From the NCBI GenBank assembly GCA_902532225.1, contig CACAHI010000003.1, positions 1 through 63,353 of the forward strand: a stretch of DNA of 63,353 nucleotides. Reading direction: 5' to 3'. Source of the stretch: an uncultured Pelagibacteraceae bacterium (GTDB taxonomy: Bacteria; Pseudomonadota; Alphaproteobacteria; Pelagibacterales; Pelagibacteraceae). The notes under the pieces were generated by a model, which did not search any database, was not told the origin of the DNA, and worked only from the letters and a program-made list of their open reading frames with translations. This document shows, piece after piece, positions 39,208-44,366 of this stretch. Numbering within the stretch: the first letter of the stretch is position 1; the number at the start of each line of letters is the position of its first letter. The position numbers and the translations under genes were made by a program.

Positions 39208-39650
39208 TGTTATATTTTGCTTACGGAAGTAATTTAAACCATATTCAAATGAAAGATAGATGCAGCAGAGCGAAATATATCAAAAAACATACTTTAAATG
39301 GTTATAAATTATGTTTTAGTCATAAAACAAATCATTCTGTTTATGGGCATGCAAACATTATAAAAAACAAAAAATCTGAAGTACATGGAGCCCTTTGGGA
39401 TATTACAAGAAATGATGAGAAAGAATTGGATGGATATGAAGGGGTTGATTATAATTATTATCAAAAGGAATATTTTACTTTAAAAGGTAAAAAGGTTTTA
39501 GTTTATGTTCAAAAAATATATTATTTGCAAAAACCAAATTCTACTTATTTACACACAATTATTCAGGGATACAAAGATTGCTCTTTAGATATGAAGAAAT
39601 TAAAAAAGACAATTTCTAATTATAAAATAAATTATATAGTTAATTGGTAG
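39207..39650 (+). CDS. Gamma-glutamylcyclotransferase-like protein
   Basis: MLYFAYGSNLNHIQMKDRC; HGALWDITRNDEKELDGYEG. Confidence 0.75.
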   Translation: MLYFAYGSNLNHIQMKDRCSRAKYIKKHTLNGYKLCFSHKTNHSVYGHANIIKNKKSEVHGALWDITRNDEKELDGYEGVDYNYYQKEYFTLKGKKVLVYVQKIYYLQKPNSTYLHTIIQGYKDCSLDMKKLKKTISNYKINYIVNW

Positions 39651-39707
39651 ACACTTACAAAGAGATAAATAAATCTTAAAAAATAAACCTAATTTTTTTT
39701 GAGCAAA

Positions 39708-39730
39708 CTTGTACTAAACTTGTATTTAAA
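39708..39730 (+). repeat. Imperfect direct repeat copy 1 upstream of autotransporter gene
   Basis: CTTGTACTAAACTTGTATTTAAA, 18/23 identical to copy at 39766. Confidence 0.45.
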
Positions 39731-39765
39731 GTGATAAAATAAAGCTCAAACCCATTTTGGGTAGT

Positions 39766-41954: not shown

Positions 41955-42003
41955 TATAGGATAATTTGCTCAAACAGGAGCAGGACAGGAGCATAGAGAG
42001 ATA
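41955..42003 (+). repeat. 49-bp direct repeat, copy A, upstream flank of HNH gene pair
   Basis: TATAGGATAATTTGCTCAAACAGGAGCAGGACAGGAGCATAGAGAGATA; 43/49 identical to copy B. Confidence 0.85.
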
Positions 42004-42010
42004 GTATAAT
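41982..42010 (+). promoter_or_regulatory. Candidate promoter of HNH genes with -35 inside repeat A (AGGACA-17-TATAAT)
   Basis: AGGACA 41982-41987, 17-nt spacer, TATAAT 42005-42010, ATG at 42025. Confidence 0.5.
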
Positions 42011-42024
42011 AGGATAGTATTTTT

Positions 42025-42726
42025 ATGGGTTATTGGAATAATATAAGAGCATCTGGCATAAATTTATATGAGCGATATTGCGTTAAATGCCAAACAAAAA
42101 AATCTATTTCACTTTTTCCAAAACATCAAAAGTATAAAAAATCAAATAAATGTTTTGAATGTCTTGATGAAGTAAAATGTAAAAGTTGTGGAGATATTAA
42201 GAAATATAAAGATTTTGAACCTAAATACAAAGGATCTCGTAAATCAAAGATTGAATGTTGGGAATGTTTTATAAGTAGAAAAAATTTAAGAAGAAGAAAA
42301 AGTTATGCTAAACAAAAAGCTGAAGGGACACTTATTCCAATAGATAGAGACAAAATGCAAATGCATAGTTTGTTATGGGCGAAAATTAGTTCTAAAAAAT
42401 CAAATTCCAATAATAAAAATAATGAAAGATCTTCAGTAGTAGAAATAACTAGTGAACAATTTAAAATTTGGTTCAAAAAAAATTATGATGAAACTTGTTA
42501 TTATTGTGGGATTTCTATTGAGCAATTCAGATCAAGTAAATTTGTTAAAAAAATAAGACCTCACATTAAAAATTTTGGAGTAGATAGAAAAGATACAAAA
42601 CAAGGCTATAAAGTCAGCAATATTGTTATTTGCTGTAATTTTTGCAATTCTGTTAAAGGATCCTTTTTTAATGATGAGGAATTTAGAAAAATAGGAAAAA
42701 AATATATTAGAAAACTTTATGACTAA
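42025..42726 (+). CDS. HNH endonuclease-like protein with N-terminal CxxC zinc-binding motifs
   Basis: CVKCQ, CFEC, CKSCG, CWEC, then CYYCG...GVDRKDTKQGYKVSNIVICCNFCNSVKG. Confidence 0.7.
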   Translation: MGYWNNIRASGINLYERYCVKCQTKKSISLFPKHQKYKKSNKCFECLDEVKCKSCGDIKKYKDFEPKYKGSRKSKIECWECFISRKNLRRRKSYAKQKAEGTLIPIDRDKMQMHSLLWAKISSKKSNSNNKNNERSSVVEITSEQFKIWFKKNYDETCYYCGISIEQFRSSKFVKKIRPHIKNFGVDRKDTKQGYKVSNIVICCNFCNSVKGSFFNDEEFRKIGKKYIRKLYD

Positions 42727-43369
42727 AAAAGTTGAGCGTCCGTATTTTCAACTAGGAAGACCTAGAAAGTACTCAAAAGAGGAGGCTAAGCAAAAATATG
42801 CTGAAAAAGCAAAAAAAAGATTATCTAACCTCTCTGATAAAGAAAAAGAGTTAATGTCTTTAAGAAGGAAAGAATATGCAAAAAAAAATAAAAAAAAAAT
42901 AAATCAAAATAGTAGAGCCAGACATCAGCGTAATATGCTTGATCCAGAATACAGAAAAAAAATAAGAGCTTTAAGAAAAAAAACAGAACAAAAAGCAAAA
43001 GAAAATAATCCTTTCGTAATGGTAGGTGAAAACCTCAAGGATAGTGCTAGAAATAGAAATATAGAAGCCCCACATAAACCACTTGAATATAGAAAATGGT
43101 ATGAAGAAAAAATAAAGGTTTGTTATTATTGTGGAAATAATAATGAGACAATTAAAAGTTATTTAAAAAAAATTGGAGAAAAAGTTGGTAATCAACAAAA
43201 TAGACTTCAAATAGAAAGAATAGACAGCTCCAAGGGTTACTTGCTTAATAATTTAACTTTAGCTTGTTCTATCTGCAACACACATAAATCAGATATAATT
43301 TCAGCTAAAGATTTTAAAGAAATTGCACAAAAATACATAATTCCAAAAATTAAAAGTGAATTGAGTTAA
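42719..43369 (+). CDS. HNH endonuclease-like protein with Lys/Arg-rich N-terminus
   Basis: CYYCG...RLQIERIDSSKGYLLNNLTLACSICNTHKS; start overlaps previous gene by 8 nt. Confidence 0.68.
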   Translation: MTKKVERPYFQLGRPRKYSKEEAKQKYAEKAKKRLSNLSDKEKELMSLRRKEYAKKNKKKINQNSRARHQRNMLDPEYRKKIRALRKKTEQKAKENNPFVMVGENLKDSARNRNIEAPHKPLEYRKWYEEKIKVCYYCGNNNETIKSYLKKIGEKVGNQQNRLQIERIDSSKGYLLNNLTLACSICNTHKSDIISAKDFKEIAQKYIIPKIKSELS

Positions 43370-43382
43370 TTTGAAAAATTTC

Positions 43383-43399
43383 TAATTCTATTAGAATTA
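43383..43399. repeat. Perfect inverted repeat TAATTCTA-T-TAGAATTA after the second HNH gene
   Basis: 8-bp arms with 1-nt spacer read directly. Confidence 0.6.
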
Positions 43400-43400
43400 T

Positions 43401-43449
43401 TATAGGATAATATGGGACAACAGGAGCAAGACAGGAGCATAGAGAGATA
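43401..43449 (+). repeat. 49-bp direct repeat, copy B, downstream flank of HNH gene pair
   Basis: TATAGGATAATATGGGACAACAGGAGCAAGACAGGAGCATAGAGAGATA. Confidence 0.85.
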
Positions 43450-43522
43450 AACTAAAAAAATTTTACTTATTGCTCTTGTTCAATTATAAATATTAGCATA
43501 AATACTCATGAAAATAACTCAT

Positions 43523-43608
43523 GCCCTCGTGGTGAAATTGGTAGACACAAAGGACTTAAAATCCTTGCCCTTTTGGGAGTGCCAGTTCGAGTCTGGCCGA
43601 GGGCACCA
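43523..43608 (+). tRNA. tRNA-Leu (TAA anticodon), CCA encoded
   Basis: GCCCTCG/CGAGGGC acceptor stem, long variable arm, loop CTTAAAA, GTTCGAGTC T-loop. Confidence 0.93.
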
Positions 43609-43613
43609 CATTA

Positions 43614-44366
43614 ATGAATAAAATTACAATAATCTCAGATACAAATAAAAAATCATTAAGAATAAAATCATTTATTTCTAAAAATATAAAAAAATATCAA
43701 TTCTTAAAATCAAATTTAATAATTGTTATTGGCGGAGATGGTTTTATGCTTAAAGTTTTAAAGAAAAATAAAAATTCAACAAAATCATTTTACGGGATTA
43801 ACTCTGGTAACTATGGTTTTTTAATGAACAAATTTTCACCTAAACATACTATAAAAAATTTTTCTAAGGCAAAAATGATCTCTATTTCACCGTTAGAAAT
43901 GATTGTAAAAAATAAAAAAGGACAAAATAAAAAATTTATCGCAATCAATGAGGTATCAATTTTGAGACAAAGTAGACAAGCTGCATCATTACTAATTAAA
44001 ACTGGTGCAAAAACTATTATTAAAAAATTAATTTCTGATGGAGTGTTGGTGTCAACACCAGCAGGAAGCACTGCCTATAACTTATCAGTCCATGGTCCTA
44101 TTTTAAGTTTGCATTCAAAAAAATTATCTATTTCTCCAATAAGTCCTTTTAGACCAAGAAGATGGAAGGGTAAAATTATAAGCGACAAATCAATTGTAAA
44201 AATAAGAAATTTAAATCCCCAAAAAAGACCAATTAGTGCAGTAGCTGATAATTTAGAATTTAGAAATGCAAAAAATATTTTAATAAAAACTGATAAAAAA
44301 ATTAAATTTAATTTATTATATGATTCAAACAGAAGTCTTCAAAAAAAATTAAAATTGAACAAATAA
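43614..44366 (+). CDS. nadK: NAD kinase
   Basis: LIIVIGGDGFMLKVLKK; GINSGNYGFLMN; STPAGSTAYNLSVHGPIL. Confidence 0.88.
   Translation: MNKITIISDTNKKSLRIKSFISKNIKKYQFLKSNLIIVIGGDGFMLKVLKKNKNSTKSFYGINSGNYGFLMNKFSPKHTIKNFSKAKMISISPLEMIVKNKKGQNKKFIAINEVSILRQSRQAASLLIKTGAKTIIKKLISDGVLVSTPAGSTAYNLSVHGPILSLHSKKLSISPISPFRPRRWKGKIISDKSIVKIRNLNPQKRPISAVADNLEFRNAKNILIKTDKKIKFNLLYDSNRSLQKKLKLNK

Follow-up and report, generated by a model that had tools for sequence, protein, structure and literature searches.

An HNH-carrying cassette at a SAR11 tRNA-Leu gene, probably mobilised in trans by a satellite-type integrase

Introduction

SAR11 bacteria outnumber all other heterotrophs in the sea; their genomes are streamlined and are thought to contain few mobile elements. 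To our knowledge, little has been established about how they exchange accessory genes. A locus that bears on this lies in a contig of an uncultured Pelagibacteraceae bacterium (GCA_902532225.1, CACAHI010000003.1), of which a stretch of 63,353 nucleotides, hereafter the window, was analysed. Here two HNH nuclease-like genes are enclosed by two copies of a 49-bp direct repeat, immediately upstream of a tRNA-Leu gene. What kind of unit is this, and what could move it? The initial annotation, made from the sequence of the window, offered two readings, a compact mobile or homing-type element, or a cassette exchanged by recombination between the repeats. Comparison with relatives and with viral contigs bears on both.

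Results

Architecture of the window unit

The coordinates initially given for the two HNH reading frames, which overlap by 8 nt, were reproduced, as were the 43 identities between the two 49-mers and the distance of 73 bp from repeat copy 2 to the tRNA gene, identified as tRNA-Leu(TAA) (Table 1). The unit holds these two reading frames only, in agreement with the earlier remark that neither integrase nor transposase is encoded between the repeats, and an Rfam scan of the region found the tRNA alone.

Each repeat is itself an internal tandem of two 11-bp units (ACAGGAGCARG ACAGGAGCATA GAGAGATA); the arm word of this unit, ACAGGAGC, is present twice per arm and is followed by GAGAGATA. A 31-nt core of the repeat occurs at two places only in the window (0 expected from shuffles), and a 19-nt core has just two occurrences, both at this locus, in the 830-kb assembly of the bacterium itself (completeness 68.6%). 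The general pattern of paired 11-bp direct repeats and RGAGATA is found in front of tRNA-Leu elsewhere in this SAR11 genus. The exact core had no match in IMG/VR, where a relaxed search for ACAGGAGC in tandem returned one unrelated phage contig (L198); additional exact matches in GTDB, on Clostridium and Chlorobiaceae contigs, lack the tandem and are likewise unrelated.

A third, degenerate copy, whose word is different (ACTTGTAC), lies before the autotransporter gene, so that this gene is flanked by repeats too. Upstream of it, at the end of a GGACT reading frame and where a left junction would be expected, lies a possible remnant of a tRNA-Leu 5′ half, which 2 of 200 shuffles of the region equalled in score. 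Repeat copy 1 is a hybrid that passes from right-end-type sequence (TATAGGATAAT) into left-end-type sequence (TTGCTCAA), with no tRNA fragment between. Since the autotransporter belongs to a family of cassette cargo and has its own degenerate arm, the window holds two fused cassettes.

Table 1. Positions of the features discussed (window numbering, except for the last row)
Feature	Position	Strand	Remarks
Possible degenerate tRNA-Leu 5′ half remnant, TTAATTGGTAGACAC	39640..39654	+	13/15 to tRNA; tentative
Degenerate left arm of autotransporter cassette, ACTTGTAC x2	39707..39736	+	0 matches in 586 kb shuffled control
Autotransporter gene, 709 aa	39807..41936	+	Family is cassette cargo in L048, L051, L099, L112
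Repeat copy 1, fused right end TATAGGATAAT and left end TTGCTCAA	41955..42003	+
Arm motif of repeat copy 1, ACAGGAGC x2	41974..42003	+
Cargo gene 1, HNH nuclease, PacI-like, 233 aa	42025..42726	+
Cargo gene 2, HNH nuclease, PacI-like, 216 aa	42719..43369	+	Paralogue of gene 1
Repeat copy 2, right end	43401..43449	+	Arm motif ACAGGAGC x2 at 43420-43449
Element-borne tRNA promoter region, part of right end	43450..43522	+	TTGTTC-17 nt-TAAATA; from alignment of loci, promoter by eye
tRNA-Leu 5′ half supplied by element	43523..43561	+	Core ends ..GGACTTAAAA, anticodon loop
Intact tRNA-Leu(TAA), attachment site	43523..43608	+
NAD kinase gene	43614..44366	+	Conserved chromosomal flank in relatives
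Phosphate-operon cassette of L207	6228-13676 of L207		G478:C10, SAR11 single-cell genome AG-414-N18; further cassettes precede

The locus in relatives

With the right repeat plus tRNA as query, the locus was found in 283 of the 399 genomes of the genus. Eighty loci were fetched and aligned from the tRNA side; they were chosen by similarity to the tRNA region of the window, and frequencies among them are therefore biased and are not population frequencies. Most of the aligned loci have the same architecture upstream of the tRNA with other words in place of that of the window (ACTGGAGC, ACTAGAAC, ACTAGACG, ACCAGCAC, TCTCGGAT and others). An arm motif was recognisable beside the intact tRNA in 68/84 loci. 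The two halves within one motif were identical in 55 of these 68, against 3.7% in between-locus comparisons, and the word itself is hypervariable, with 27 distinct forms.

At many loci one to three truncated tRNA-Leu 5′ halves lie further upstream, broken off at ..GGACTTAAAA, the point at which the core of the window tRNA ends. Left-end sequence follows the truncated half, and the left arm is reached ~125 bp on (~165 bp from the tRNA start). From these fragments and arms the unit can be read as left end, left arm, cargo, right arm, tRNA promoter and tRNA 5′ half; units run from a cut tRNA-Leu 5′ half to the intact tRNA and most measure about 1.2-6 kb. Identical 7-mers were found at both ends in 39 of the 48 units with both arms (expected 2.8; none of 20,000 permutations as good). 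The 7-mers differ in the other nine, one of which (L102) is a register artefact, so that ends diverge or recombine.

The limits first assigned to the element are thus only partly right: the repeats do flank the unit, but its true left boundary in relatives is the truncated tRNA-Leu, which is invisible in the window because the left end there is a fusion that lost it. While relatives keep both ends, the window cassette has a complete right end and, on the left, an arm whose tRNA fragment is gone; hence excision of this copy as one unit may no longer be possible.

Two other loci (L054 and L067) show a fusion of the same kind as the window left end, and a third (L098) consists of core, left end, one arm and right end with zero cargo. 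By their sequence, this cargo-less scar and the fused ends are the products expected of arm-arm recombination, the process between repeats that had been proposed initially. Unoccupied sites, for which the initial annotation had suggested a search, exist as well: 14 fetched loci have tRNA-Leu with neither repeat nor upstream tRNA fragment. An excised circle of an integrase-less cassette was not seen. At a further locus (L008, G105:C2:74915) an arm motif and a promoter of tRNA type stand ahead of a protein gene in place of tRNA-Leu.

A search of the cassette loci with a profile of the satellite integrase described below gave no match in any of them. SAR11 genomes typically have one PF00589 match each, and among the matches listed none, compared by eye, lay between tRNA fragment and tRNA. 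The match in the window's own genome (G000:C1, 442 aa) is at another locus and was not recognised by the satellite-integrase profile. As judged from alignments and profiles, then, the tRNA-Leu gene is a docking site for swappable small cassettes with matching ends, and these cassettes lack an integrase of the satellite type.

Cargo of the cassettes

That relatives would carry different genes at this locus was correctly anticipated, the slot being occupied by unrelated cargo. Besides HNH genes it includes trypsin-like proteases, pilin-like proteins, autotransporters, PD-(D/E)XK, McrBC, GmrSD and methyltransferase genes. The word of the window itself, ACAGGAGC, brackets one secreted-protein gene in L012. 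In L207 it stands at both ends of a complete phoR-pstSCAB-phoUB operon, in the order histidine kinase, phosphate-binding protein, two permeases, ATPase, PhoU and response regulator. Among the matches listed for other genomes, compared by eye, no pstS was near tRNA-Leu on the same contig; pstS lying elsewhere in these, L207 is an isolated and unusual instance.

Cassettes frequently carry pilin-like genes (FTLIELLVVVAIIGILAAVG; L065, L104, L107, L116, L188), often several in tandem per cassette. In L050, L069, L071, L125, L207 and others, many unrelated cargo proteins share an almost identical signal peptide at their start (MKKLLGIVVLGLLW..), as though a common secretion start came with the left end of the cassette.

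The HNH pair

Both HNH proteins score below the Pfam cut-offs. They match the PHROG endonuclease VII/HNH family (6e-17 and 1.3e-9) and PacI (2.7e-11 and 1.2e-5), and are paralogues of one another with 28% identity. Both align over the beta-beta-alpha-metal/zinc region of PacI, and by this similarity across the catalytic and zinc-binding region they are classed as PacI-like HNH proteins; the window differs from PacI in having two tandem genes, extra N-terminal regions and no adjacent methyltransferase gene. Gene 2 was absent from the 398 other genomes of the genus searched and had no relative in the viral contigs searched, and phage records contained no relative of either gene. The pair is cargo of the cassette and the repeat is most probably no HNH target; the two proteins are perhaps a phage-restricting nuclease pair.

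Satellite-like elements with the same attachment site

Viral contigs containing the tRNA half were taken from the IMG/VR viral collection, membership of which is no proof of packaging; they include L156, L171, L175 and L177. L156 is a 7.8-kb contig with repeated ends, i.e. circular. L156, L171 and L177 have an arm motif ~100 bp to the left and ~165 bp to the right of the same tRNA core, and in L175 the left arm is visible, on the side that lies inside the contig. The right arm of these satellites falls within the first codons of a 545-aa integrase gene. L156 also has genes for an AEP-type primase, which includes a DUF5906 helicase region, and for a RusA-like protein; capsid genes were not seen in L156-like elements, nor conjugation genes in the att-sharing satellite-like elements. 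Integrated elements of the L156 kind are present at tRNA-Leu in SAR11 genomes (L185, L186, L188), and 6 of the 399 genomes contain the integrase family. Some integrase-less cassettes bear the same words as L185 (ACCAGCAC) and L186 (ACTAGAAAC), and a satellite bearing the window's own word, ACAGGAGC, was not found.

The satellite integrase matches phrog_1 (4.3e-20), retains the conserved R-K-R-H-Y residues and had no match among named phages. In the predicted structure (mean pLDDT 81, pTM 0.47) its fold matches lambda and Tn1549 Int. The N-terminal domain of this model matches the arm-binding domains of the HAI7, HPI and P4-like integrases (3ju0, 3jtz, 3rmp) with Foldseek E values of 0.04-0.17 (prob 1.00); by sequence, the integrase profile retrieved designed repeat proteins only from the PDB. 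Integrases of L172 and L174, whose words differ, share 52% in the N-terminus versus 96% elsewhere, while those of L156 and L177, with the same word, show 96%/94% and no N-terminal divergence. This suggests that the N-terminal domain diverges with the repeat word and would contact the arms. With direct-repeat arms flanking the tRNA core and matching a putative arm-binding N-terminal domain, the att site is, as modelled, of the P4-type-arm kind.

Several observations extend beyond these elements. L172, L174 and L188, among viral and SAR11 contigs, carry a second integrase type with the same core and other 11-bp words (AGTTGCCCACC, AGTTACCCAAG, TGGTTCCACAC). The same tRNA-Leu core is present without these arms in viral contigs L157, L160-L163, L165-L168, L170, L173, L176 and L178; in L166 a tyrosine integrase and a phage RNA polymerase lie near it, so that ordinary phages, too, seem to use the tRNA half as an attachment core. 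A contig bearing T4-like phage genes (L164:3765-5129; PhoH, GIY-YIG-like) contains a cassette right end, consisting of the arm ACCTGTAC x2, the SAR11 tRNA promoter and the tRNA 5′ half, followed by a short ATG-started stretch; a phage may have acquired a cassette here, or the assembly may be chimeric. The satellite-like contig L177 (9405-12305, 966 aa) and the integrase-less cassette L084 (2664-5960) each encode a large helicase/nuclease-like protein, and the two have similar N-termini, which suggests exchange of cargo between satellites and cassettes.

Discussion

The compact mobile element proposed initially can now be described as an att-flanked cassette at tRNA-Leu. We consider it likely that the 1.45-kb unit is a non-autonomous, integrase-less cassette at tRNA-Leu(TAA), moved by a satellite integrase in trans and carrying the HNH genes as cargo. 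At the level of sequence we regard as established the att architecture, the matched hypervariable arms, the lack of a satellite-type integrase in the cassettes, the existence of satellites with the same att site, and the products of arm-arm recombination; mobilisation in trans by the satellite integrase is the probable step that joins them.

According to this model, the cassette ends would be the P and P′ arms of a tyrosine-integrase att site, each with two 11-bp direct repeats. The arm word (here ACAGGAGC) would be specific to the element, and the right end would also bring the tRNA promoter and the tRNA-Leu 5′ half. The integrase would be supplied in trans by a satellite-like element (integrase plus primase/helicase, no capsid genes seen) and would recombine the core GGACTTAAAA in the anticodon loop. 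An incoming element would thereby replace the tRNA 5′ half and leave the old half upstream, and repeated integration would stack cassettes. Homologous recombination between arms would then delete tRNA fragments, as at the window left end, or cargo.

The strongest rival holds that the cassettes are relics spread solely by homologous recombination through arms, promoter, tRNA and nadK flank, with no integrase acting today. The L098 scar and the fused ends do show arm-arm recombination, and units with mixed arms exist. A study of HIMB59, another streamlined marine group, argues for the same route for phosphate islands, as no tRNA or IS mark was seen at their edges (PMC10734472). We nevertheless think it unlikely, since it leaves unexplained why tRNA 5′ halves break exactly at the core, why the left end is satellite-like and why the words match from left to right.

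A homing element, in which the HNH proteins would cleave an unoccupied repeat site and the cassette would be copied in during repair, was suggested by the two HNH genes between repeats and by their endonuclease VII/HNH similarity in PHROG. It is now highly improbable: in a homing element the nuclease gene is constant and interrupts its own target, whereas here the end plan is constant and the HNH genes are rare, gene 2 being absent from the 398 other genomes searched while the repeat type is common. Dozens of units have the same kind of ends around unrelated cargo without an HNH gene, and a tyrosine-integrase attP at tRNA-Leu has arm sites that match these ends. Equally improbable is a regulatory role, in which a transcription factor would bind the 11-bp tandem units as half-sites ahead of the HNH operon and of tRNA-Leu. 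The spacing of 11 bp speaks for it, as does a TATAAT-like box that lies between copy 1 and the ATG. Against it, the word varies among relatives at the same tRNA gene yet matches across the ends of one element, the motifs lie inside integrase coding sequence in satellites, and the tRNA has an apparent promoter of its own; the arms may affect transcription secondarily.

For the cassette moved in trans, the parts of a precise candidate mechanism are visible: a tRNA gene as dock, address repeats that match, and an integrase that could act on them. Such a mechanism would account for a class of hypervariable SAR11 genes (those of restriction systems, autotransporters, pilin-like proteins and proteases, and one phosphate regulon), and it predicts which satellites move which cassettes. 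We give about even weight to a broader proposal, an integron-like cassette economy at SAR11 tRNA-Leu in which a large pool of integrase-less cassettes is sorted by arm words acting as addresses, the integrases of satellites read each word in trans and cargo is swapped by arm-arm recombination. If true, this economy would pass genes for defence, the cell surface and even nutrient uptake (phoR-pstSCAB-phoUB in L207) from cell to cell.

Comparison with known systems

The literature covered consists of open-licence papers, with tycheposons and VEIMEs compared through secondary accounts, and the system may have been described elsewhere. Integron cassettes are similar in being small and promiscuous, arrayed at one site and served by a tyrosine recombinase made elsewhere. 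They differ in that the present locus has no IntI, the site is a tRNA gene, and the cassettes have full att arms, the window-type ends consisting of 11-bp arms in tandem and half a tRNA gene. PICMI and other phage satellites resemble L156, L185 and L186, which have integrase and primase, no capsid genes seen and a size of about 8 kb; but no helper phage is known for these three. The window cassette differs from phage satellites in having no satellite core gene, neither an integrase of its own nor a replication gene.

Tycheposons and VEIMEs, in the secondary accounts, are marine, tRNA-located and cargo-carrying, with autonomous members that encode a tyrosine recombinase (PMC10872708, PMC10803314). 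As far as these accounts go, the window unit shares with them the position at a tRNA gene and the cargo, and L156-like elements resemble them, but the window cassette lacks a recombinase and falls below the size range of 4-200 kb given for tycheposons. A CIME is defined as lacking integration and transfer genes, keeping attL and attR and accreting in tandem at one site (PMC5704250). The window unit is like the CIMEs of ICE/IME families (e.g. ICESt1/ICESt3) in lacking integration and transfer genes. Units of the window type differ as SAR11 gene cassettes, mostly of 1-7 kb, with many arm words per genus, common at one locus, and in place of an origin by ICE/IME decay they share their att site with satellite-like elements encoding integrase and primase. 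The cassette fits neither the CIME, no ICE/IME parent being seen, nor, on the accounts available, the tycheposon, having no recombinase, and it resembles both in its working.
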